Shown piece by piece: positions 50,846 through 64,000 of a stretch of 64,000 nt of DNA. A program made the translations under genes and the position numbers. The DNA is from Halorussus sp. MSC15.2 (lineage in GTDB: Archaea > Halobacteriota > Halobacteria > Halobacteriales > Haladaptataceae). The stretch spans positions 62,001 to 126,000 of the forward strand of contig NZ_VSLZ01000007.1 in NCBI RefSeq assembly GCF_010747475.1, in the 5' to 3' direction. The notes beneath the pieces were generated by a model. It was not told the origin of the DNA. It made no database searches and worked only from the letters and a program-made list of their open reading frames with translations. Position 1 is the first letter of the stretch. Each line of letters begins with the position of its first letter.

Positions 50846-51307
50846 TTATTCGCCCTCCCGTTCGTCTACGACCAGTACCGACCGGTGGGTCGAGCGGAGG
50901 ACGCGCTCGGTGACGCTCCCGAGGAGCATCCGTCGGACGCCCGACCGACCGTGGCTACCCATGACGACGAGGTCCACGTCGTGGTCCTCGGCGAAGTCGG
51001 CGATGACGTCGTGGGGTCGGCCCGCGCGGAAGTGCTCCGCGACGTCGATGCCGCGCTCGCGGCCGCGGGCCGCGACGTGTTCGGTCGCCTCCCGGGCGCG
51101 GGCTTCGAGTTCGTCCATCTCGCCGAAGCGCCCCGACCGGATGCGCTCGACCTGCTCGGTACCGAGGCTCAACTCCGCAGCGTCGGTGTCCACGACGTAG
51201 AGCGTGTACACCTCCGCGTCGAACTTCTCGGCGATGTCGAGTGCCTCCTCGACAGCCAGTTCGGCGGTTTCGCTCCCGTCGGTGGGGATGAGGATGCGCT
51301 CGTACAT
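50846..51307 (-). CDS. Universal stress protein in the acetate-transport operon
   Basis: 153 residues: MYERILIPTDGSETAELAVE and the ATP loop VVMGSHGRSGVRRMLLGSVTE (GxxGRSG-x9-GS). Its start is one base from the symporter stop. In haloarchaea UspA often sits with transporters and may tune them in response to energy state (inference). Confidence 0.9.
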   Translation of the reverse strand: MYERILIPTDGSETAELAVEEALDIAEKFDAEVYTLYVVDTDAAELSLGTEQVERIRSGRFGEMDELEARAREATEHVAARGRERGIDVAEHFRAGRPHDVIADFAEDHDVDLVVMGSHGRSGVRRMLLGSVTERVLRSTHRSVLVVDEREGE

Positions 51308-51308
51308 C

Positions 51309-52952
51309 TCAGTCGTCCCCCGAAACCTGACCGCCGTCCGTCGAGACGACGTCCTCGGCGCTCTGCTGTTGGCCCATCGGTTCCGGACTGTGACACTGCC
51401 GGACGATGCGCTTGATTCGCTCGGGCGGTTCGTCGGTCGCCAGCGAGACGCCGATGGTGACCGCGAAGACGATGGGCGTCCCGGCGAGCGCCGCCCCGAC
51501 CGCGGGGAAGATGTCGGCGTAAATCTGGACGACCGGACCGGCGTCGGTGGCGAAGATGAGTTCGTTGAACACCGCCGCGGTCCAGATGGCGAGGCCGGTG
51601 GTCATCCCGGCCAGCGCGCCCTGTCGGTTGGCGTTCTCCCACCAGAGACCGAGGAAGAACATCGGGAACAGCACGAGTCCGGCCAGCGAGAAGGCCAGCG
51701 CGACCAGTTCGCCGACCAGCGCGGGCGGGTTGAGCGCGGTGACCGTCACGATAGCGCCCAGCACCACGATGGTCGCGCGACCGATGAGGAGTTGCTGGCG
51801 CTGGGTCGCGTCGGAGTTGATGATGTTCGTGTAGATGTCGTGTGCAGCCGCCGACGACGCGGCGATGAACAGTCCCGCGGTCGTGGCGATGGCGGCGGCG
51901 ATGCCGCCCGCCGCGACGAGTCCGACGAACCACGTCGGGAGGTTGGCGAGTTGGGACGCCAGCACGACGATGACGTCGCCTTCCGCGCCGCTCATGCCGC
52001 TCGCGCCGTACACGTCGCCGACCTTCTTCGCGTAGAGGTCGGTCCCGAACGCCGCGAAGGCGGGGGCGCTCAGGTAGAGCAGGCAGATGAAGAACAGGCC
52101 CCAGACGGTGGACCAGCGCGCGGTCCGCTCGCTCTCGACCGTGTAGAACCGCACCAGCACGTGCGGGAGTCCGCAGGTGCCGACGATGAGCGAGAACGCG
52201 GTCGCGACCCAGAGGTAGAAGCCGCCGTTCGTGAACGGTTGGGTGAACTCGCTGTTGAGTTGGCTCAGGAGCGCGCCGTACTCGACCTGCGGCAGGAACG
52301 TCGAGTAGCCCTGCGTCCAACCCACCGCGTACAGTCCCGCGAGGAACGCCACGATGAGGATGACGTACTGGACGGCCATGTTCTTGGTCGCGCCCAGCAT
52401 CCCCGACAGCGCGAGGTAACCCACCGTGATAGCCATCAGCAGGACGACCATCGTGGTGTAGTCGCCGCCGAAGACGTAGATGCCGACCAGTCCCATGCCC
52501 CGGGCCTGTCCGACCGAGTAGACGAACCCAATGAGGATGGTCGTCAGCGCGGCGATGGCTCGCGCGGTGTCGGAGTCGAATCGGTCGCCGACGAAGTCGG
52601 GCGCGGTGTACTTCCCGAACCTGCGCATCTGGGCCGCGAGGAAGATGAGCAGGATGAAGTAGCCCGTGGACCAGCCGACCACGAACGCGAGTCCGTAGTA
52701 GCCCGATAACGCGATGAGCGCGGCCATGCCGAGGTACGACGCGGCCGACATCCAGTTCGCGCCGATGGCCATCCCGTTCTCGACGTTCCCGATGGACCGG
52801 CCCGCGACCCACAGGTCTTCGGTGTCGGCCACGCGGAACACGTACCCGATGCCGAGGAACAGCAGCAGCATCGCCGAGACCATCACGGCCGGAATCGCCT
52901 TGAACGAGGCGTTGAGCGCGTCCGGCAGGAGGTCGAGCGGCGTGAACATCAT
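51309..52952 (-). CDS. Sodium:solute symporter, acetate-type (VC_2705 family)
   Basis: 547 residues, about thirteen transmembrane helices. SSS landmarks: LWVAGRSIGNVENGMAIGAN, SAASYLGMAALIALSGY, APDFVGDRFDSDTARA and GGIAAAIATTAGLFIAASSA. With the DUF4212 subunit upstream it forms the two-part monocarboxylate symporter. The acs genes nearby make acetate the likely substrate. Stop and start of neighbours overlap or nearly so, indicating one transcript. Confidence 0.9.
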   Translation of the reverse strand: MMFTPLDLLPDALNASFKAIPAVMVSAMLLLFLGIGYVFRVADTEDLWVAGRSIGNVENGMAIGANWMSAASYLGMAALIALSGYYGLAFVVGWSTGYFILLIFLAAQMRRFGKYTAPDFVGDRFDSDTARAIAALTTILIGFVYSVGQARGMGLVGIYVFGGDYTTMVVLLMAITVGYLALSGMLGATKNMAVQYVILIVAFLAGLYAVGWTQGYSTFLPQVEYGALLSQLNSEFTQPFTNGGFYLWVATAFSLIVGTCGLPHVLVRFYTVESERTARWSTVWGLFFICLLYLSAPAFAAFGTDLYAKKVGDVYGASGMSGAEGDVIVVLASQLANLPTWFVGLVAAGGIAAAIATTAGLFIAASSAAAHDIYTNIINSDATQRQQLLIGRATIVVLGAIVTVTALNPPALVGELVALAFSLAGLVLFPMFFLGLWWENANRQGALAGMTTGLAIWTAAVFNELIFATDAGPVVQIYADIFPAVGAALAGTPIVFAVTIGVSLATDEPPERIKRIVRQCHSPEPMGQQQSAEDVVSTDGGQVSGDD

Positions 52953-53371
52953 CGGTCGGACCCTCCGTCAGTCGCGGCCGCTTCCGGTTCCTGTCGCCGG
53001 GTCGAGTGGTCGATACCGTACTTCTCGTCGAGTCGGTCGCGCTTCCGCGCGTAGACGAACGAGAGCACGAGCGCGCCCGCCGGTGCCCCCGTCGCGGTCA
53101 GGAGGTAGTGGAGCGGGAAGCCGATTACGGTCACGCTCGTCATAAAGTCGGTCGCGAGGTACGTCGCCGTCACGGGTCCGAACACGAGGAGCGCCCACGC
53201 CGCGAACATCGTCCACACGACCCTGAGGTGGTCCCGCATGAACGGGGTGGATGGTTTGAAGATGTTGACTTCCGCATCGAGGTAGTCGGCGGTCTCTCGA
53301 CCGGCCGCCACGCCGCCGTCGGTCTCGATGTCGGCGTTCGATTCGTCCTTTCGTGAGTTATTATCTGTCAT
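52949..53371 (-). CDS. DUF4212 protein, small subunit of the symporter
   Basis: 140 residues, an acidic N-terminus, then DHLRVVWTMFAAWALLVFGP and FPLHYLLTATGAPAGALVLS (two helices) and FVYARKRDRLDEKYGID, the DUF4212 signature. Such proteins pair with SSS symporters. Overlaps the symporter start by four bases (ATGA). Confidence 0.9.
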   Translation of the reverse strand: MTDNNSRKDESNADIETDGGVAAGRETADYLDAEVNIFKPSTPFMRDHLRVVWTMFAAWALLVFGPVTATYLATDFMTSVTVIGFPLHYLLTATGAPAGALVLSFVYARKRDRLDEKYGIDHSTRRQEPEAAATDGGSDR

Positions 53372-53429: not shown

Positions 53430-55421
53430 TCAGTCGTCGCCGACCTTCGACGCTATCTCGCTGACGATTTCAGGGTTGCGAAGCGTCGAGGTGTTGCCCA
53501 ACTCCTCGCCGTTAGCCACGTCCTCCAGAAGTCGTCGCATGATTTTGCCCGAGCGGGTCTTGGGGAGTTCGGGAGTGAAGACGACGGCTTCGGGCCGAGC
53601 AATCGGTCCGATGGCGTCTTCGACACCCTCGACGATGCGGTCGCGCATCTCGTCGCCCTCCTCGTAGCCGTCCTCGGTGATGACGTAGGCGTAGACCGCT
53701 TCGCCTTTCACGTCGTGGTTCCCGCCGACGACGGCGGCCTCGGCGACGCCTTCGACGCCGACGATGGCCGACTCGATTTCCATCGTGCCGAGGCGGTGGC
53801 CCGAGACGTTCAGTACGTCGTCCACGCGCCCGAGGACCGTGATGTAGCCGTCCTCGTCGATTTTCGCGCCGTCCTCCGGGAAGTAGACCCAGTCGTCGGG
53901 GTCGTCGCTGTCGGTGTCGGAGTACTCCGCCCAGTACTCCTCGATATAGCGCTCGTCGTTGTTGTACAACGTCCGGAGCATCCCCGGCCACGGCTTCTGG
54001 ACCGTGAGGTGGCCCGCGCGCCCCGGTTCGACCTGCTCACCCTCGGTGTCTACGACCTGTACGTCTACGCCCGGGAGGGGCGGTCCCGCGGACCCCGGTT
54101 TCATGTCTTTCACGCCGGGGAGCGTGGTGACCATCATGCCGCCGGTCTCGGTCTGCCACCACGTGTCGATGATGGGGCAGTCCTCGCCGCCGATGTGCTT
54201 GTAGTACCACTTCCACGCCCGCGGGTTGATGGGTTCGCCGACCGTCCCGAGCAGGCGGAGACTCGACAGGTCGTGTTTGTCGGGGTACTCCGAACCCCAC
54301 TTCATGAACGCCCGAATCGCGGTTGGCGCGGTGTAGAGCTGGTCGGCCTCGTACTCTTCGATAATCTCCCAGAGGCGGTCCTGCTCGGGGTGGTCCGGCG
54401 TTCCCTCGTACATCATCGTCGTGGTGCCCAGCGAGAGTGGGCCGTAGACGATGTAGGAGTGGCCGGTAATCCAGCCGATGTCCGCCGAGCAGAAGTACGT
54501 GTCCTCGGGCTTGATGTCGAGGACTGCCTGCGACGTCCACGCCGTCCACGCCAGATAACCGCCGGTCGTGTGCTTGACGCCCTTCGGTTGCCCCGTCGTA
54601 CCGGAGGTGTACATCAGGAACAGCATGTCCTCCGCGTCGCGCGACACCGGTTCGACCTCCGCGCCAGCGTGGTCGGCCACGAGGTCGTCGTAATCGCGGT
54701 GGTTCTCGCCCATCGGGTGGTCGTAGTCGTCGCCGAGTCGGTCCACGACGACCACGTCCGACACCTCGTGTTCGACGCCGTCGAGGCCCTCGTCGGCCTT
54801 GGCCTTGTGTTCCAGCGCGTCGCCGCGCCGGTAGTAGCCGTCGCAGGTCACGAGGTACTCGGAGTCGGCCGAGTTCATCCGGGTGGCGAGGGCGTCCGCG
54901 GAGAAGCCCGCGAAGACGACCGAGTGGGGTGCGCCGATGCGGGCGCACGCCAGCATGGCGATGGGGAGTTCCGGAATCATCGGCATGTACATCGTCACCA
55001 CGTCGTCCTCGCCGACGCCCATCTCGCGGAGCGCCGCGGCGAACTCGTTGACCTCGCGGTGGAGTTCCTCGTAGGTGTAGGTGCGGTTCTCCTCGTCGGT
55101 GGGTTCACCGACCCACTCGATTGCAGCCTCGTCGCCGCGCTCGTCCAGATGCCGGTCGAGGCAGTTCGCCGAGGCGTTGAGTTCCCCGCCGGTGAACCAT
55201 TCGTAGAACGGCGGGTTCGAGTCGTCCAGCACCGTGTCGTACTCCTCGTTCCAATCGAGCAGGTCCGCGGCCTGCTCCCAGCACTCGGGCCACTCCTCTT
55301 CGAACGTCTCGTAGACGGAATTGTCCGAGACGTTCGCCTGCGAGACGAACGATTCGGAGGGGACGAATCGCTCTTGGTCGGCGAGTCGGGCTTCGAGTTC
55401 GACGTCTTGTTCTTCCGGCAT
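53430..55421 (-). CDS. acs: Acetyl-CoA synthetase
   Basis: 663 residues, the standard ACS length. Motifs: MYTSGTTGQPKGVKHTTGGY (P-loop-like), DTWWQTETGGMMVTTLPG, DGYITVLGRVDDVLNVSGHR and PKTRSGKIMRRLL, whose Lys is the acetylation-regulated catalytic residue. It makes acetyl-CoA from acetate, ATP and CoA. Lies just upstream of the acetate symporter operon, so uptake and activation are probably co-regulated. TATA box at 55448-55456. Confidence 0.95.
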   Translation of the reverse strand: MPEEQDVELEARLADQERFVPSESFVSQANVSDNSVYETFEEEWPECWEQAADLLDWNEEYDTVLDDSNPPFYEWFTGGELNASANCLDRHLDERGDEAAIEWVGEPTDEENRTYTYEELHREVNEFAAALREMGVGEDDVVTMYMPMIPELPIAMLACARIGAPHSVVFAGFSADALATRMNSADSEYLVTCDGYYRRGDALEHKAKADEGLDGVEHEVSDVVVVDRLGDDYDHPMGENHRDYDDLVADHAGAEVEPVSRDAEDMLFLMYTSGTTGQPKGVKHTTGGYLAWTAWTSQAVLDIKPEDTYFCSADIGWITGHSYIVYGPLSLGTTTMMYEGTPDHPEQDRLWEIIEEYEADQLYTAPTAIRAFMKWGSEYPDKHDLSSLRLLGTVGEPINPRAWKWYYKHIGGEDCPIIDTWWQTETGGMMVTTLPGVKDMKPGSAGPPLPGVDVQVVDTEGEQVEPGRAGHLTVQKPWPGMLRTLYNNDERYIEEYWAEYSDTDSDDPDDWVYFPEDGAKIDEDGYITVLGRVDDVLNVSGHRLGTMEIESAIVGVEGVAEAAVVGGNHDVKGEAVYAYVITEDGYEEGDEMRDRIVEGVEDAIGPIARPEAVVFTPELPKTRSGKIMRRLLEDVANGEELGNTSTLRNPEIVSEIASKVGDD

Positions 55422-55447: not shown

Positions 55448-55456
55448 CTATATAAG
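55448..55456 (-). promoter_or_regulatory. TATA box of acs
   Basis: TTATATAGC read on the minus strand, about 27-35 bases before the ATG at 55421. Confidence 0.6.
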
Positions 55457-55582
55457 TGATGGAACTAACTATTCCAAACGGCATCGTTCGCCGCGTATAG
55501 CCGTCGTAAGTGTATTTTATGGTGTTTAATGTCTGCGGTAGGAGGTTTAACTGAACCGGCGTTCGCACGCGAGGCTAAATAG

Positions 55583-57361
55583 TTAGTGTCCGTCGGCGTC
55601 CACCGTCCGGGGGTCGGGGTCGTCGAACACCGCTTCGAGCACCTTCTGCTGGGCCTTCCGGAGGTGGTTGTGGAGCGTGGGCGAGGAGACGTCCATCGAG
55701 GCCGCGAGTTCCTCCGCGGTGCTGCCCCGGGGCCACTCGAAGTACCCGGCGAGGTAGGCGGCCCGGAGGACGGTCCGCTGGCGCTCGGTCACGCGGTCGT
55801 GGACAGTCTGCTGGACGGTGGCCGCGCTCTGAACCGGTTCCTCGACGTCGCGCTTCGACCGGAGATTCGTCGCCGGGAACGCCTCCTCGACGGCCTCCAC
55901 GACTCGCCGGACGTCTACGCGCGACGAGAAGACCCCGGACACGTCCGCGACGCCGCCCTCGACGGAGAGTTCGCGGACGGTGCCGCCGCGCTCGACCAGC
56001 ATCGGCGCGATGGAGTCGCCCGAGACGGCGAACTCGAAGAGCGCGCCGTCGCCGTAGTCGCGGATGAGGCGGGCGTCGTCCACGGCGTCGGCGCTCGACA
56101 CTCGTTCCAACACGCCCCCCACCGCGGCACCGCTCGCAGTGACGAAGTAGAGCAACGAGTGGTCCTCGACCGGGACGACGCCTTCGAGTTCGAACCGACA
56201 CCCGAGGTCGGCCGAGGCCGCCACGAGGAAGACGCCGCGGTCGGTGGTCCGCAGCGAGAGCGCGACGCCGGTGTCGGCCAACAGCAACTGCTTGCGAGCG
56301 ATGGCGGTGACGGTCCGGCCGACGCGCCGTCCGACGTCCGCGACGAACGTCCGGTCGGCCGAGGCGAACGCATCGTGGGCCACGCAGAGCAGTCCGTGGA
56401 CCGTCTCGCTCGACCGGAGCGGCGCGACGGCGACCGAACATCCCGACAGCGCCCCGCTGGATAGCGCCTCGTCGGACAGTCCTCCTCCGGCCGACGCGGT
56501 ATCGATTACTTTCACGTCTGCGATGTTCTCACCGTCCGTGACGCCCGCCGCGTCGAGAACGTCGGCGGGGACGCCGTCGGTGGACTTCGGGGCGGCGCTC
56601 GTCCGGACGTCGCCGCGCTCGTCGCAGACCCACACCGCGTGGTACGCGTCGGACAGACTGTCGCAGACGACCTGCTCGGCGTCCTCGGTCGTGGACGCGT
56701 CCGCGAGCGCCTCGCCGAGTGCGCCGGCGCACGCGAGGAGGTCGTCGCTCCGCGCGTCGGCGGTGCCTCGCTGGCGGGCGAGCGGACGGCGTTCGATTCG
56801 CGGACCTGCGGCCGGTTCCTCGGCGAAAGCCTCCACGACCTCCGCGGTGGTCGGGTCGTCGAGGTACGGCGCGAGACTCTGGAGGCTCTGCCACCCGCCG
56901 ACCGCCTGCACGACTCGGGGGGCGACGCCCTCCTCCACGAGCAGTCGCCACGCGAAGTGCTGGCGGAGGTCCCGGCAGGTCACGTCGCGGAGTCCGTCGG
57001 TCCGGTCGGCCACGTCGCCGACCAGCATCTGAACGCGCCGGGGCGACACGTCCACGAGCGGGTCGTAGCGGTCCACGTCGTTCGCGTTGGCGAACTTCCG
57101 GAGGTCGTGGGCCACCTCCTGTGGCACGTACGCCTCGCGGGTCTCGCCGTCGCCCTCGGGCACCGTGAGCAGGTAGTGAACCTCGCCGCCGCGCTCGCGC
57201 TCGCGGAGGTCCGCCGGGCGAACGCGGGTTATCTCCGAGGCCCGGAGACCGACGCGCCCGGCGAGTGCCACCACGAGGTCCTCGCGGTACGTCTCGGCCC
57301 GCCGCCGGAGGCGCTCGTACTCGGCGGTCGTCAGGAACGCGTCGCGGGATTCGACGGCCAT
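55583..57361 (-). CDS. Bat-type HTH regulator with integrase-like N-terminal domain
   Basis: 592 residues. Residues about 10-185 resemble the catalytic domain of a tyrosine recombinase: GLRASEITRVRPADL (first Arg), CRDLRQHFAWRLLVEEGVAP (second Arg; usual His is Arg), VVQAVGGWQSLQSLAPYLD (Tyr). Then a GAF domain, a bacterio-opsin activator GAF/HTH-associated domain and a C-terminal HTH_10 (RAAYLAGYFEWPRGSTAEEL, PTLHNHLRKAQQKVLE). It is likely a transcription factor using the recombinase fold to bind DNA. Set between two acs genes, so acetate control is likely (inference). Confidence 0.85.
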   Translation of the reverse strand: MAVESRDAFLTTAEYERLRRRAETYREDLVVALAGRVGLRASEITRVRPADLRERERGGEVHYLLTVPEGDGETREAYVPQEVAHDLRKFANANDVDRYDPLVDVSPRRVQMLVGDVADRTDGLRDVTCRDLRQHFAWRLLVEEGVAPRVVQAVGGWQSLQSLAPYLDDPTTAEVVEAFAEEPAAGPRIERRPLARQRGTADARSDDLLACAGALGEALADASTTEDAEQVVCDSLSDAYHAVWVCDERGDVRTSAAPKSTDGVPADVLDAAGVTDGENIADVKVIDTASAGGGLSDEALSSGALSGCSVAVAPLRSSETVHGLLCVAHDAFASADRTFVADVGRRVGRTVTAIARKQLLLADTGVALSLRTTDRGVFLVAASADLGCRFELEGVVPVEDHSLLYFVTASGAAVGGVLERVSSADAVDDARLIRDYGDGALFEFAVSGDSIAPMLVERGGTVRELSVEGGVADVSGVFSSRVDVRRVVEAVEEAFPATNLRSKRDVEEPVQSAATVQQTVHDRVTERQRTVLRAAYLAGYFEWPRGSTAEELAASMDVSSPTLHNHLRKAQQKVLEAVFDDPDPRTVDADGH

Positions 57362-57674
57362 TCTATTTCGTATTCCTTCAGAAGAGCGAATAAACGTTCC
57401 GAAACGAGCTTCGAATGGTAACCCGATTCGAGCGGTGGATTTCGTCGGGTCGGAGTTGTGTCCCGACTCACTGAAACGGTATATTGTAGCCTCTCAGGGT
57501 ATATGGGGCGTTCTGCGGTTCGTCGGTGAGGGTGAAGTCCACCTCCGAATTGCGGGTCCACTCCGGACTGTACGAGTGGGTCAGCCGATTTATGGATTTC
57601 CCGTTTTATCGCCGAATAGATACCCAAGAAACGATATTTCGAACCTTCAGAAAAAGACGAAATACCTCGGATTC
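57362..57674. other. Intergenic region between the regulator and the second acs
   Basis: No gene seen. Includes TTTATTCG on the minus strand (57388-57395), a TATA-like box about 30 bases before the regulator start, and AT-rich runs that may be targets of the regulator. Confidence 0.4.
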
Positions 57675-59603
57675 CTATCGGTCCAGCAGCGATTCGAGTT
57701 CGCCGACGACTTCCGGGTTCCGGAGCGCGCTCGTGTCGCCGAGGTCCTCCCCGTTGGCGATGGCCGCGAGGTAGCGGCGGACGACCTTCCCCGAGCGCGT
57801 CTTCGGGAGCGACGGCGTGAACGTCACCACGTCGGGTGCCGCGATGGGGCCGATGGCCTCCTCGACCGCCTCGCGGACGCGCCCGCGGAGCGCGTCGTCG
57901 CCGGCCACGTTCGACTCGGGGCTGACGAAGGCGTGTATCTCCGACTTCCGGACGGCGTCGGCGTCCTCGCCCACGACGACGGCGGCCTCCGCGACGCCCC
58001 CGACGCCGACGATGGCCGACTCGATTTCGGTGGTACTCAGCCGCCTGTCTGAGACCTTGAGGACGTCGTCGGCCCGTCCGAGCAGGTGGACGTAGCCGTC
58101 CTCGTCGCGGACGGCGTTGTCGCCCGTGGCGTACTGCCACTCCCCGCCGACGGTGCGCGTCCGGCGCGCGCCCCACCCGGACCCCTCGCACAGCGACCGG
58201 GCCATCCCCGGCCACGGGCGCGTGACGACCAGTTGGCCCGACTCTCCGGGTGGAGCGGATTCGCCCAACTCGTCGACGACGTCCGTCTCGATGCCGGGGA
58301 GGCTCTTCCCGACCGCTCCCGGGCGCATCCGGTCAACGCCGGGGAGCGTCGAGAGGACGATGCCGCCGGTTTCGGTCTGCCACCACGTGTCCACGACCGG
58401 GCACTCGCCGTCGCCGACGTGGTCGCGGTACCAGTGCCACGCCGTCTCGTCGATGGGCTCGCCGACGGTCCCGAGCAGGCGCAGACTCGACAGGTCGTGG
58501 CTCTCTGGGTGCTGTTCGCCCCACTTCATGAACGCCCGGATGGACGTGGGTGCGGTGTAGAACACGTCCACCTCGTTGCGCTCGATTATCTCCCAGAGGC
58601 GGTCGGTCTCTGGGTGGTCGGGCGTCCCCTCGTAGAGGACGGTGGTCGCGCCGAGCGCGAGCGGGCCGTACACCGCGTAGGAGTGGCCCGTAATCCAGCC
58701 CACGTCGGCCGAACACCAGTGGGTGTCCTCGGGACCCAAATCGAGGACGGCGTGGCTGGTCCACGCGACGTGTGTCAGGTAGCCGCCGGTGGTGTGGCGG
58801 ACCAGCGTGGGTTCGCCCGTCGTTCCTGAGGTGTAGATGAGAAAGAGGAGGTCGTCGGTCTCGCGCGAGACGGGTTCGATTTCCGCCCCGGCGTGGTCGG
58901 CCACGAGGTCGGCGTAGGCGCGGTGGTCGCCCGCCGCGGGGTCGTCGTCGAGGCGGTTCACCACGACCTGCTCGACGCCGTGGTCCACCGACAGACAGGC
59001 GTTGTCCGCCCTGCGCTTCAGGTCGAGCGCGGCCCCCCGCCGGTAGTAGCCGTCGCAGGTCACGAGGTACTCCGACTCCGCGCCCTCCAACCGAGTCGCG
59101 AGGGCGTCCGCGGAGAACCCCGCGAAGACGACCGAGTGGGGTGCGCCGATGCGGGCGCACGCCAGCATGGCGACCGGCAGTTCGGGAATCATCGGCAGGT
59201 AGAGCGTGACCACGTCGTCCTCGCCGACGCCCATCTCGCGGAGCGCCGCGGCGAACGCGTTCACCTCGTCGGCGAGTTCCCGGTAACTGTACGTCCGGGT
59301 CTCGCCGAGTTTCCCCTCCCACGAGATGGCGATTTCCTCGCCGCGACCCGCCTCGACGTGGCGGTCCACGCAGTTGTACGAGGCGTTGAGTCGCCCGCCG
59401 GGGAACCAGCGAGTGGTCCCCTCGTCGTCGAGTACCGAGTCGAACGAGCGGCCCCAGTCCAGCAGGTCGGCGGGTCGCTTCCAGCACTCGGGCCACCCCG
59501 CCTCGCGGAACGCTTCGCAGTCGGCCGCCGTGACGTTCGCCGTTTCGACGAACGACTCCGGCGGCGACACCCACTCGCGTTCGTCGGGACTGCTATCGAC
59601 CAT
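57675..59603 (-). CDS. Acetyl-CoA synthetase-like protein, divergent second copy
   Basis: 642 residues. Clear ACS relative: GAPHSVVFAGFSADALATRL, DTWWQTETGGIVLSTLPG, PKTRSGKVVRRYLAA (the catalytic Lys is kept). Departures: the P-loop TSGTTGEPTLVRHTTGG lacks the usual PKG lysine, and the hinge GRADDVLKVSDRRLST differs from GRVDDVLNVSGHRLGT. It carries an insert at ARRTRTVGGEW. May prefer another acid (propionate, for example) or act more slowly. Same strand as the first acs and the regulator. Confidence 0.88.
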   Translation of the reverse strand: MVDSSPDEREWVSPPESFVETANVTAADCEAFREAGWPECWKRPADLLDWGRSFDSVLDDEGTTRWFPGGRLNASYNCVDRHVEAGRGEEIAISWEGKLGETRTYSYRELADEVNAFAAALREMGVGEDDVVTLYLPMIPELPVAMLACARIGAPHSVVFAGFSADALATRLEGAESEYLVTCDGYYRRGAALDLKRRADNACLSVDHGVEQVVVNRLDDDPAAGDHRAYADLVADHAGAEIEPVSRETDDLLFLIYTSGTTGEPTLVRHTTGGYLTHVAWTSHAVLDLGPEDTHWCSADVGWITGHSYAVYGPLALGATTVLYEGTPDHPETDRLWEIIERNEVDVFYTAPTSIRAFMKWGEQHPESHDLSSLRLLGTVGEPIDETAWHWYRDHVGDGECPVVDTWWQTETGGIVLSTLPGVDRMRPGAVGKSLPGIETDVVDELGESAPPGESGQLVVTRPWPGMARSLCEGSGWGARRTRTVGGEWQYATGDNAVRDEDGYVHLLGRADDVLKVSDRRLSTTEIESAIVGVGGVAEAAVVVGEDADAVRKSEIHAFVSPESNVAGDDALRGRVREAVEEAIGPIAAPDVVTFTPSLPKTRSGKVVRRYLAAIANGEDLGDTSALRNPEVVGELESLLDR

Positions 59604-59757: not shown

Positions 59758-61360
59758 TCAGCTATCGCTCGCGAGTTGCGCTCCGACGACCGCCGTGACC
59801 TCGTCCTCCGAGAGGTCGCCGAGCCGCGAGTCCTCGCCGAGCGTCGCCATGATGGTCGCCGGTTGCTCGTTGAACGTGAACTCGATGAACATCCCCGAGG
59901 ACGGCCCGTGGCTCTTGCGCTCGGACTCCACGATGGAGTAGGTCGTCAGCTCCTTCATCTTGTTGACGTACGTCTCCTGATGGTACTGGTCGGTGTCGAG
60001 CGCGTCGGTGAGGAACTGGTAGACATGATACCCGGTCGTGCTCCGCGCCGAACTGCTCCCGCTCTGGTTCGCCACCGCGGCCGTCGCGTACAGACAGAGC
60101 TTCTTCTGCGTGCTGATTCCGCGCGTGACCTCCAGCACGCGGTTCCGCTCGACCTTGTCCTGAGCCTTCCGGACGTGGCGCTCGCCGACCCGGTCGGCAC
60201 CCTCCCGCTCGGCGAGGTCGCCCGCGACCCGCATGAGGTCGATGGCCTTCCGGGCGTCGCCGTGGGTCTGGGCGGCGAACGCCGCCGCGAGCGGAATCAC
60301 GTCGTCTTCGAGCACGTCGTCGTAGAAAGCGTCCTTCCGGTGGTGGAGGATTGCGCGCAACTGGTTGGCGTCGTAGTCGTCGAAGTGAACGTCCTCCGGG
60401 GTGAACGAACTCAGCGCCCGACTGCGACCGATTCGAGCATCTTCGTGTCGTTCGTGATGGCGGCGATGGACACCTGCGCGGTGATGTCGTTGCTCGACCC
60501 GGCCCGCGAGAGTTGATAGAGCAGTCGCGAGAACGCCGGTTGGTCCTTGTCGCGCCGACCCACCAGCATGTCCAACTCGTCGAGGACGAACACGACCGTC
60601 TCGTAGTTCTCGTTGACGAGTCGGTAGAGTTCCCGCCACTTCTCCTTGGTCGAGACGCCGTGCTGGGGCACCTCCAGCGGGACGCCCGCCCGGTCGGCGA
60701 CCTTCCGAGCGAGTTCGTAGACCGCCGACCCGAGCGTCCCGATGTCCTGACAGTTCATCTCGATGACGCCGAACCGAATCCCCCGGTTGTCGCAGAGGCG
60801 GCCGATGTTCTCGCACACCGCGTTGATGATGAGCGACTTCCCGGTCCCCGACGGCCCGTAGAGGAAGAGGTTCGGCGGGCGATTGTCGCCGATGGCGACT
60901 CGCAGCATCTTCGTGACCTGTGTGAGTTGCTCGTCGCGCCCGACGATTCGCTCCTCCTCGACGACCTCGTTCGGGTTGAGCAGCGACCGATTCCGGATGA
61001 GCGACTTCTGCTCGTCGAACTCCAGCAGCATCTCCTCTATCGACTTCGAGTCCGGTTCCCCTGACTCCGCGTCGAGTTCCGCGGACGTCGGGTCCCGGTT
61101 CGCGGACTCCGAATCTGCTTCGGAGGCGGCCGCCTTCCGGAGGTCCGACGCACGTCGGCGCTCGGGGTCGCCTCGGAGCGTCGCGTTACCGGGGTCCGAT
61201 ACGGTGTCGTCGCCGACGTTCGATACCGCGTCTTCGCCGGTATCGGATACCGCGTCCTCGCTGTCGTCCGAAACCGCGTCCGCCGGTCGATTCTCGCCCG
61301 GCGGTCCCGCAGAGAAGCGTCCCCGTCTTCGTCGTCTCCAACTGGGGCGTCAGAATCCAT
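59758..61360 (-). pseudogene. orc: Orc1/Cdc6 replication initiator, frameshifted
   Basis: AAA+ core: DEQKSLIRNRSLLNPNEVVE, NLFLYGPSGTGKSLIIN (Walker A), VVFVLDELDMLVGRRD (Walker B), sensor region AAITNDTKMLESV; then the frame breaks near 60424, where one missing base joins it to ALSSFTPEDVHFDDYDANQL and the winged-helix domain (TYVNKMKELTTYSIVESERK). The N-terminus is acidic with an eight-residue repeat (DAVSDDSE...); it lacks a start, but a second missing base near 61308 links it to ATG 61360 (MDSDAPVGDDEDG). It binds the origin repeats next door and loads the MCM helicase. Confidence 0.88.
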
Positions 61361-62112: not shown

Positions 62113-64000
62113 TCACTCCCGCAACCGCTCTTGCCACTCCTGAACTCGATTCATCAACTCGATGGGCGAGGTGTCGCTCAGGTCCGTGTCCTTCACCGCC
62201 TCCATCACGGCCTCCGTTTCCGGGTCCACAGACTCTGCATCGACTGACTCCGAACCCGCTGGTTCGGCACCTGCCGACTCGACCGACGCCTCGTCACGTC
62301 CGCCAGCGCCGTCTCCACCGGCGTCGTCGGCCCCGCGGAACTGCCCCGACCCGAGGTCGAACACGACCTGTTGCGGGTCGCTCTCCCCGCGCTGGCCGCC
62401 TCCGTCGCCGCTCTGGCCGCCGCGCACGTCGATGGCCTCGTCCTCGCGGAGTCGCCGGAGGACGTCGCGCGAGCGCTCGACCACCGGTTCGGGAACCCCT
62501 GCGAGGTCCGCGACGTGAATCCCGTACGAGCGATTCGTCGGCCCGTCCTCGACTGTCCGGAGGAAGGTCACGTCGCCGTCGGACTCGTCCGCCGCGACGT
62601 GGACGTTCTGGACGCCGGGGAGTCGGTCCGCGAGGCTCGTGAGTTCGTGGTAGTGAGTCGCGAACAGGGTCTTCGAACCGACCTGATTGGCGAGGTACTC
62701 CGTGGCGGCCCACGCGATGGAGATGCCGTCGTAGGTCGCGGTGCCTCGGCCAACCTCGTCCAGAATGACCAGCGAGTCCTCGGTGGCCGAATGGAGGATG
62801 TTCGATAGCTCCTGCATCTCGACCATGAACGTCGAGCGACCCTGCGCGAGTTCGTCCAGCGCGCCGACTCGGGTGTAGATGCCGTCCACGACCCGACCTC
62901 CGCGGCGTCGGCCGGGACGAAGCTCCCGATTTGGGCGAGCAGGGTTATCAGCGCGGCCTGTCGCATGTACGTCGATTTGCCCGACATGTTGGGTCCCGTG
63001 ACGACGAGGAAGCGGCGTTCGTCGCGGTCGCCGGTGCGCCCGCGGTCGGACGAGGAGGAAGCACGCGCCCCGTCCATCCGGAGGTCGTTCGGGACGAACT
63101 CGGTCGTACGTTCGACCACGGGGTGGCGGCCCGCGTCGATGCGGAGGTCCCCCGACTCGGTGAGTTCGGGTCGGACCCAGTCGTTCTCGACGGCGTGGAC
63201 CGCGAGGCTGGCGAGGGCGTCGAGTTCCGCGAGGGCGCGCCCCACCGACTGCAGAAGGTCGGCACGCCGGGCGACTCCCTCCCGCAGGTCGCCGAATAGT
63301 TCGTACTCCAGTTCGCCCCGGCGCTCTTCGAGGCGGAATATCTGGCGCTCGCGCTCGTCCAACTCGTCGGTGGTGTAGCGCTCGGAGTTCTTCAGGCTCT
63401 TGAGTCGGTCGTAGCGGTCGGGCACCTTCCCGGTCTCGGAGTTGCCGACCTGAATGTAGTAGCCGTCGGTCTTGTTGCGGTCCACTTGGAGGTGTCCGAT
63501 GCCGGTCTTTCGCTTCTCGCGGTCGTCCAGCGTCGCAAGCCACTCTTTCGCCTCCTCGTGCTGGTCGATAATCTCGTCCAACTCGTCGTCGTAGCCCCGT
63601 CGGAACAGACCGCCCTCCGTGACGGTTCCCGGCGGGTCCTCGGCGAGCGCTCCCAACTCTTCGCGGAGGGCGGCGGCCGCCTCGCGGTCGGGCCGGGCGA
63701 CAACCTCGGCGAGCGGTGAGTCCGATAGCCGGGGGTCGTTAGCGACGGCGTCGGCGACCTCGGGCAGGAGCGCGAGGGTCTCGCGCACCCGCAGGAGGTC
63801 GCGGGCGTCCGCGCTCCCGTGGGCCGCCTTGCTCGCCAGTCGTTCGAGGTCGTAGGCCCCGTCGAGGGTCTCCCGGACCGTCTCGCGGGCCAGTGCGGAG
63901 TCGGCGAACGCGGCCACGCCGTCGGCCCGTTCGCGGAGAGTCGGCAGGTCCTGTCGGGGGCGCTGGAGCCACTCCTTCAGGAGGCGCTTGCCCGGACTCG
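62113..64000 (-). pseudogene. mutS: DNA mismatch repair protein MutS, frameshifted and partial
   Basis: The N-terminal part is beyond the right edge. Visible: SPGKRLLKEWLQRPRQDL (core domain), [17 protein letters not shown], then the ATPase with [20 protein letters not shown] (Walker A), and after a break [40 protein letters not shown] (Walker B) and [12 protein letters not shown]. The frame breaks near 62895 where GGG should be GGGG ([15 protein letters not shown]). The acidic C-terminal tail ends at TGA 62113. It recognises mismatches with MutL. Probably intact in the organism. Confidence 0.92.

Follow-up and report, generated by a model that had tools for sequence, protein, structure and literature searches.

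A recombinase fold with a decayed catalytic site in a probable regulator of haloarchaeal acetate activation

A gene between two acetate--CoA ligase (acs) genes of Halorussus sp. MSC15.2 encodes a 592-residue protein in which a tyrosine-recombinase fold is joined to a GAF-like region, a BAT domain, and an HTH_10 domain. It lies in a 64,000-nucleotide stretch of contig NZ_VSLZ01000007.1 (hereafter the window, to which all positions refer). The protein is probably a cassette-bound transcription regulator of haloarchaeal acetate activation and uptake, with the dead recombinase domain as a DNA-binding module. This reading builds on the fold, the catalytic loss, purifying selection on the dead domain, the synteny, and both DNA elements found in the cassette; the assignment of domains to elements, the sign of regulation, the ligand, and autoregulation are what we infer. 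Our best reading of the recombinase domain, as a DNA-binding module, takes the phage repressor MrpR (discussed below) as its analogue, and a former DNA-rearranging enzyme now seems to be part of a metabolic switch.

The preliminary description of this gene placed it exactly, at 55583-57361, and left the strand unstated. The plus-strand frame of this interval is interrupted by an internal stop, while the minus strand from 57361 to 55583 is open and encodes 592 aa. The gene and its domains are as follows:

55583..57361 (-), regulator gene of 592 aa, open from ATG to stop, with recombinase-fold, GAF-like, BAT, and HTH_10 parts
56822..57340 (-), tyrosine-recombinase catalytic-domain fold, residues 8-180 (PF00589, AlphaFold, and XerA match)
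56279..56761 (-), GAF-like region, residues 201-361 (sub-threshold GAF match; folded in the full-length model)
55811..56275 (-), BAT domain, residues 363-517 (PF15915, E 3e-42)
55634..55789 (-), HTH_10 DNA-binding domain, residues 525-576 (PF04967, E 3e-20)

In Pfam, PF00589 (Phage_integrase) matches residues 9-168 with 28.6 bits against a cut-off of 27.1, and PF15915 BAT (144 bits) and PF04967 HTH_10 (72 bits) are both far over theirs. The preliminary description read the rest of the protein as GAF, BAT, and HTH_10; the last two parts stand, but the GAF match (residues 309-349) has 16.2 bits and falls under its cut-off of 22.4. The GAF-like region has an alpha/beta fold in the full-length predicted model, and since its GAF match is under threshold, a sensor role for it is a guess.

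The recombinase fold that had been proposed for residues 1-185 is borne out by structure prediction with AlphaFold (pLDDT 93.8, pTM 0.88). The closest PDB structures are XerA 5hxy (Z 19.0) and 4a8e (Z 17.5), and the top solved-structure matches are XerA, XerH, IntI, and Cre; a profile built from 83 N-domains finds XerA-type chains at E 2e-17 and Cre weakly. XerA, whose catalytic-domain fold is thus the best structural match, has its catalytic residues and an N-terminal domain, and the regulator lacks both: neither Pfam nor AlphaFold places a core-binding domain, which is typical but not universal in tyrosine recombinases, N-terminal to the catalytic fold, which begins at residue 9. The passed Pfam cut-off and purifying selection rule out a chance match or a wrong reading frame.

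The catalytic set R, K, H/K, R, H/W, Y is incomplete in the window protein. R40 (in GLRASE), R133 (in CRDLR, C129-R133), W157, and Y166 are present, R130 occupies the position of the XerA His, and the catalytic Lys is absent; the two Arg, the Tyr, and the replacement of His by Arg in CRDLR are as originally described. In XerA the catalytic Lys lies two residues ahead of the aligned Arg, and at the corresponding place, two residues ahead of R75, it is found in 0/143 distinct fusions versus 9/9 stand-alone relatives. The fusions have His at 130 (the HxxR position) in 5/143 and Tyr at 166 in 94/143, and they keep the first Arg in 129/143, the second Arg in 140/143, and Trp at the His/Trp position in 142/143. 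Only six of the 143 have the R-H/K-R-H/W-Y set when Lys is ignored, while Arg, His, Arg, Trp, and Tyr are all present in 9/9 stand-alone relatives. The fused domain is therefore a pseudo-recombinase, and its stand-alone kin look active. These fusion figures describe the best-scoring listed N-domain matches together with the loci of a full-protein search rather than all 306 genomes with a match (see below), and listed matches on, for example, G169, G270, G271, G102, and G379 lie outside the sample. Identical proteins are counted once, the split or cut genes L056, L132, and L135 are outside the fusion counts, and 15 loci of the full-protein search that have no N-domain are set apart. The N-domain alignment (A1) holds 83/84 prepared rows, with L118 left out, and alignment A2 holds 59/77.

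Seven residues (R26, G38, E43, R75, R108, R109, and L132) are invariant across 143/143 fusions. We take R108 to be the counterpart of the base-contacting Arg259 of Cre, in an alignment that presumably also places the helix opened by R108 and R109 in the major groove, and both are putative DNA-contact residues. In six comparisons, dN/dS is 0.19-0.33 for the N-domain and 0.08-0.28 for BAT+HTH, with the GAF/linker region the least constrained part of the regulator (0.35-0.52); many HTH_10 positions are invariant too (alignment A2). The invariant residues and the low dN/dS indicate that the N-domain is maintained for a non-cutting role, most simply DNA binding. On sequence grounds, the best reading is of a recombinase domain without strand-cutting chemistry, retained as a predicted DNA-binding module. 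The reuse of a lesioned recombinase fold in a BAT/HTH_10 regulator, as first proposed, thus agrees with the lost catalytic residues and with domain matches over cut-off.

The N-domain query matches 306/391 Halobacteria-class genomes at E 1e-8, a figure that includes stand-alone relatives of about 200 aa. The window genome has a single fusion of the N-domain type, and the nearest named genome is that of Halorussus aquaticus, with 94% identity over query residues 1-592. The closest relatives of the N-domain are stand-alone haloarchaeal integrases of 201-203 aa without the BAT/HTH_10 part (L074 and L136-L143). The phylogeny proposed for the N-domain, now built, places them with the fusion N-domain and separates both from the other integrases of the genome (support 92/90); the fusion group itself is weakly supported (47/14) and fits one or several fusion origins. 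These integrases consist of a catalytic domain only, with all catalytic residues (Lys, His, and Tyr in 9/9, unlike the fusions), and several are on small contigs. Judged by sequence, these proteins may be active recombinases of minimal size that belong to mobile elements. Proteins with GAF-BAT-HTH_10 and no N-domain also exist.

Bat, the haloarchaeal bacterio-opsin activator, has BAT followed by HTH_10. The regulator has these two domains in the same order, and its N-terminal module is a recombinase fold instead. Reuse of this kind was originally expected to be unusual, but the fusion is not rare in haloarchaea, as the genome counts above indicate, and its domain combination equals that of fam30-04, an archaeal tyrosine recombinase family named in 2021 (Badel et al. 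2021, PMC8371274) with PF00589, BAT, HTH_10, and in some members GAF_2; our assignment to this family is by domain set. The portion of that paper available to us gives no function, acs synteny, catalytic decay, or DNA sites for fam30-04. The family is thus already known, and the role and DNA sites described here are apparently new. Such reuse also has a precedent outside haloarchaea: in the available part of its description, MrpR/YopR, the master repressor of prophage SPbeta, has a recombinase fold with lost catalysis and acts as a DNA-binding transcription regulator (PMC10516654). MrpR/YopR and SroF of phi3T match the N-domain structurally at Z 13.1-15.3, and MrpR shares the decayed catalytic site. 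MrpR, as presented there, controls Bacillus phage lysogeny, has a core-binding domain, and is not fused to a sensor or HTH, whereas the regulator has only the catalytic domain, is fused to BAT/HTH_10, and sits in a conserved acs cassette of archaeal cellular metabolism. The MrpR authors surmised, in the same text, that tyrosine recombinases have been recruited as transcription factors more widely than had been assumed (PMC10516654). The regulator would be a large, conserved archaeal case of it, in central metabolism.

The cassette around the regulator contains the following genes:

57675..59603 (-), acs8-like acetate--CoA ligase upstream of the regulator (NF001208 748 bits, over cut-off; TIGR02188 just below)
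53430..55421 (-), acs7-like acetate--CoA ligase downstream of the regulator (TIGR02188 862 bits, over cut-off; NF001208 passed)
52949..53371 (-), sodium/substrate symporter small subunit, DUF4212-like (TIGR03647; same place in Haloferax)
51309..52952 (-), sodium/solute symporter, actP-like, VC_2705 family (TIGR03648)
50846..51307 (-), universal stress protein, which by synteny closes the acs7 operon

The order is thus acs8-like, regulator, acs7-like, symporter small subunit, symporter, and universal stress protein, and it is identical in Haloferax alexandrinus, regulator included. The placement between two acs genes noted at the outset holds, both flanks being acetate--CoA ligases by NCBIfam. 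It is also general: 136/143 distinct fusions have acs on both sides and on the same strand, five have it upstream only and two downstream only, and some of these seven are close to a contig end.

In Haloferax volcanii, the acs7-HVO_A0155-ssf-uspA28 genes form one transcript, which a Northern blot shows on acetate but on neither glucose nor casamino acids, according to the accessible part of PMC7746861, where ACS8 is reported as not involved in acetate activation and where the word 'regulator' is absent. Because of that report on ACS8, the upstream acs may have another substrate. From its tag order, between acs7 (HVO_A0156) and acs8 (HVO_A0158), HVO_A0157 would be the H. volcanii ortholog of the regulator. 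The acetate-induced acs7-actP operon of this model archaeon, whose regulator is unnamed, thereby gains a candidate. Open-licence PubMed Central papers yielded no known regulator of the acs cassette and no binding, expression, or deletion experiment on this one. Synteny, the promoter elements described below, and the published Northern of the downstream operon together point to control of acetate use by the regulator.

Haloferax, Haladaptatus, Halocatena, and Halococcus carry the regulator on large plasmids of about 285-816 kb; the metabolic cassette is therefore chromosomal in some lineages and megaplasmid-borne in others. In Haladaptatus pallidirubidus NZ_CP085301.1 the cassette is duplicated, with two whole acs-regulator-acs copies (L086 and L087) about 552 kb apart whose regulators have equal length and equal identity to the query. 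In L096/L135 of Haloferax denitrificans and in L056 the regulator frame stops after about 200-220 aa and the BAT part is detectable beyond; these split genes are possibly natural knock-outs or sequencing errors.

Two kinds of DNA element occur in the cassette. The first lies at the acs7 promoter:

55465..55472 (-), putative upstream activating element ATAGTTAG, with 8 nt between it and the TATA-like box of acs7
55449-55456 (-), acs7 TATA-like box CTTATATA
55579..55586 (-), inverted copy of the acs7 element, CTAACTAT, overlapping the regulator stop codon

Its general form, AYANNTAG, is present in 34/60 loci (shuffles: mean 0.17, max 2), in most cases 51 nt ahead of the acs7 ATG, and in 0/63 regulator or acs8 promoters. 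Twelve genomes without a fusion-type match (eleven with no N-domain match at E 1e-8, and G024 with a weak one at 1.4e-10) have an acs7-type paralog with neither the N- nor the C-part of the regulator within about 1.5 kb of flank, and the element is found at 0/12 of these paralogs. The exact element matches once in the window genome, in the acs cassette. With up to 2 mismatches it has seven genome matches, and a reversed-pattern control also has seven, so no further targets of a wider regulon can be named.

The second element, a 26-bp palindrome with the consensus TTTCG-N15/16-CGAAA, lies in the acs8-regulator gap:

57366..57391 (-), palindrome 1, ATTCG-N16-CGAAA, immediately ahead of the regulator's start (single genome-wide match of TTATTCG-N14-18-CGAAA)
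57637..57662 (-), palindrome 2, TTTCG-N16-CGAAA, just past the acs8-like stop codon

Typically one palindrome is just past the acs8 stop and the other mostly starts 12-42 nt before the regulator start; Haloferax alexandrinus has both, 109 bp apart. At 9/10, at least one palindrome is present in 61/62 non-redundant loci (shuffled gaps: mean 3.4, max 9) and two are present in 42/62 (mean 0.06, max 1). Held-out fusion loci give similar occurrences of 57/58 and 26/58, respectively; this set has 60 loci, of which two without an upstream acs match were left out and 58 scanned. Relaxing the threshold to 8/10 yields two palindromes in 105/110 loci (shuffles: mean 6.9, max 12). Perfect palindromes number 137 in 28.9 kb of gaps versus 29 in the 2.02 Mb rest of the same loci; 19 of these 29 are within the called regulator gene, and wrongly called starts may explain some of them. 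In the window genome the exact palindrome motif matches once, in the acs cassette. The inner runs of T and A are weaker in the consensus, so that the arms are about 10-11 bp each. Arms of 10-11 bp round a short centre are the geometry of recombinase core sites.

The palindrome is absent upstream of 15/15 BAT relatives without an N-domain and upstream of 9/9 stand-alone integrases; as those BAT relatives are distant, their lack of it favours N-domain binding only weakly. It is present in 49/49 scanned loci whose protein lacks Tyr. We rejected an apparent tie between Tyr loss and paired palindromes: the raw 9/10 counts look strong (two palindromes in 45/49 loci without Tyr versus 39/92 with Tyr), but independent tree pairs lend the link no support (median p 1), and it is also undone at 8/10, where two are found in 68/72 loci with Tyr and 37/38 without.

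Joining the dead domain with its invariant basic residues, the recombinase-like palindrome, and the activator-like site suggests how the regulator may work. The N-domain would be a sequence-specific DNA-binding and probably dimerising module, pairs of which could bind the 26-bp palindromes, one over the regulator's own promoter/start region and one just past acs8. Through this binding the regulator may set its own level. The GAF-like/BAT part would sense a signal, for which an acetate- or acetyl-CoA-linked one would fit, and HTH_10 would bind the ATAGTTAG-type element next to the TATA box of acs7, turning on the acs7-symporter-usp operon. The decayed active site, the invariant basic residues, and the strongly conserved operator-like site make this a directly testable system.

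An extension of this model that does not exclude it, which is possible and which we regard as tentative, is that the dead recombinase still forms a synapse: dimers bound to the two palindromes could assemble into a recombinase-like tetramer, looping the DNA of the regulator promoter as an allosteric switch coupled via BAT/HTH_10 to acetate supply. The presence of two palindromes in nearly all loci at 8/10 would suit such a loop, as would their spacings, which pile up at 77-78, 84-87, 95-99, 105-110, and 117-120 bp, in clusters about one helical turn apart; held-out loci have spacings of 96-97 (12 loci), 106-109 (13 loci), and 142 bp (1 locus). A Rayleigh test at period 10.5 over 42 loci gives p 2e-5 with kinship ignored, but shared ancestry inflates the phasing: p is 0.02-0.04 on distinct spacings alone, and when nearest pairs are compared, with 19 changed spacings, it is 0.07-0.35 and not significant. 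The window spacing of 271 bp and those over 500 bp in some relatives also fit the loop poorly. As the relatedness-aware test is not significant, we do not claim looping.

Comparably tentative is the view that the protein is an ordinary Bat-type regulator whose HTH_10 binds all of the DNA sites, palindromes included, with the recombinase fold only a module for dimerisation or protein contact. In Bat proteins, DNA binding is the known role of HTH_10. Its many invariant residues here, and the existence of GAF-BAT-HTH_10 proteins without the N-domain, speak for this explanation, but it leaves unexplained the invariance of the N-domain basic residues despite active-site decay, the recombinase-core geometry of the palindrome, and its absence upstream of every BAT relative that lacks the N-domain.

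It is unlikely that the regulator controls something else and that both DNA elements serve other factors. With no second site of either exact motif, the window genome offers no regulon cross-check against this, but the cassette is kept in nearly all distinct fusions, both elements sit within it, and in the 12 genomes without a fusion-type match the acs7-type paralog lacks the acs7 element. Finally, a recombinase that remains active and works as a genetic switch by inverting or deleting the stretch between the palindromes, to which R40, R133, W157, and Y166 of the window protein and the likeness of the paired palindromes to core sites might point, is highly improbable and was rejected on catalytic residues, since Lys is missing in 143/143, His in 138/143, and Tyr in 49/143 fusions, there is no core-binding domain, and the palindromes persist beside every scanned Tyr-less protein. 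Cassette-bound regulation with the dead domain as a DNA-binding module accordingly remains the probable explanation.

Two other genes of the window are interrupted. An orc1/cdc6-like gene at 59758-61031 (-) has halves in different frames that meet near 60414-60417, and its Halorussus aquaticus counterpart (L079) has the two halves in a single frame. A mutS-like gene at about 62113-64000 (-) reads in two frames, with a switch near 63000, and is either a decayed copy or an assembly error.
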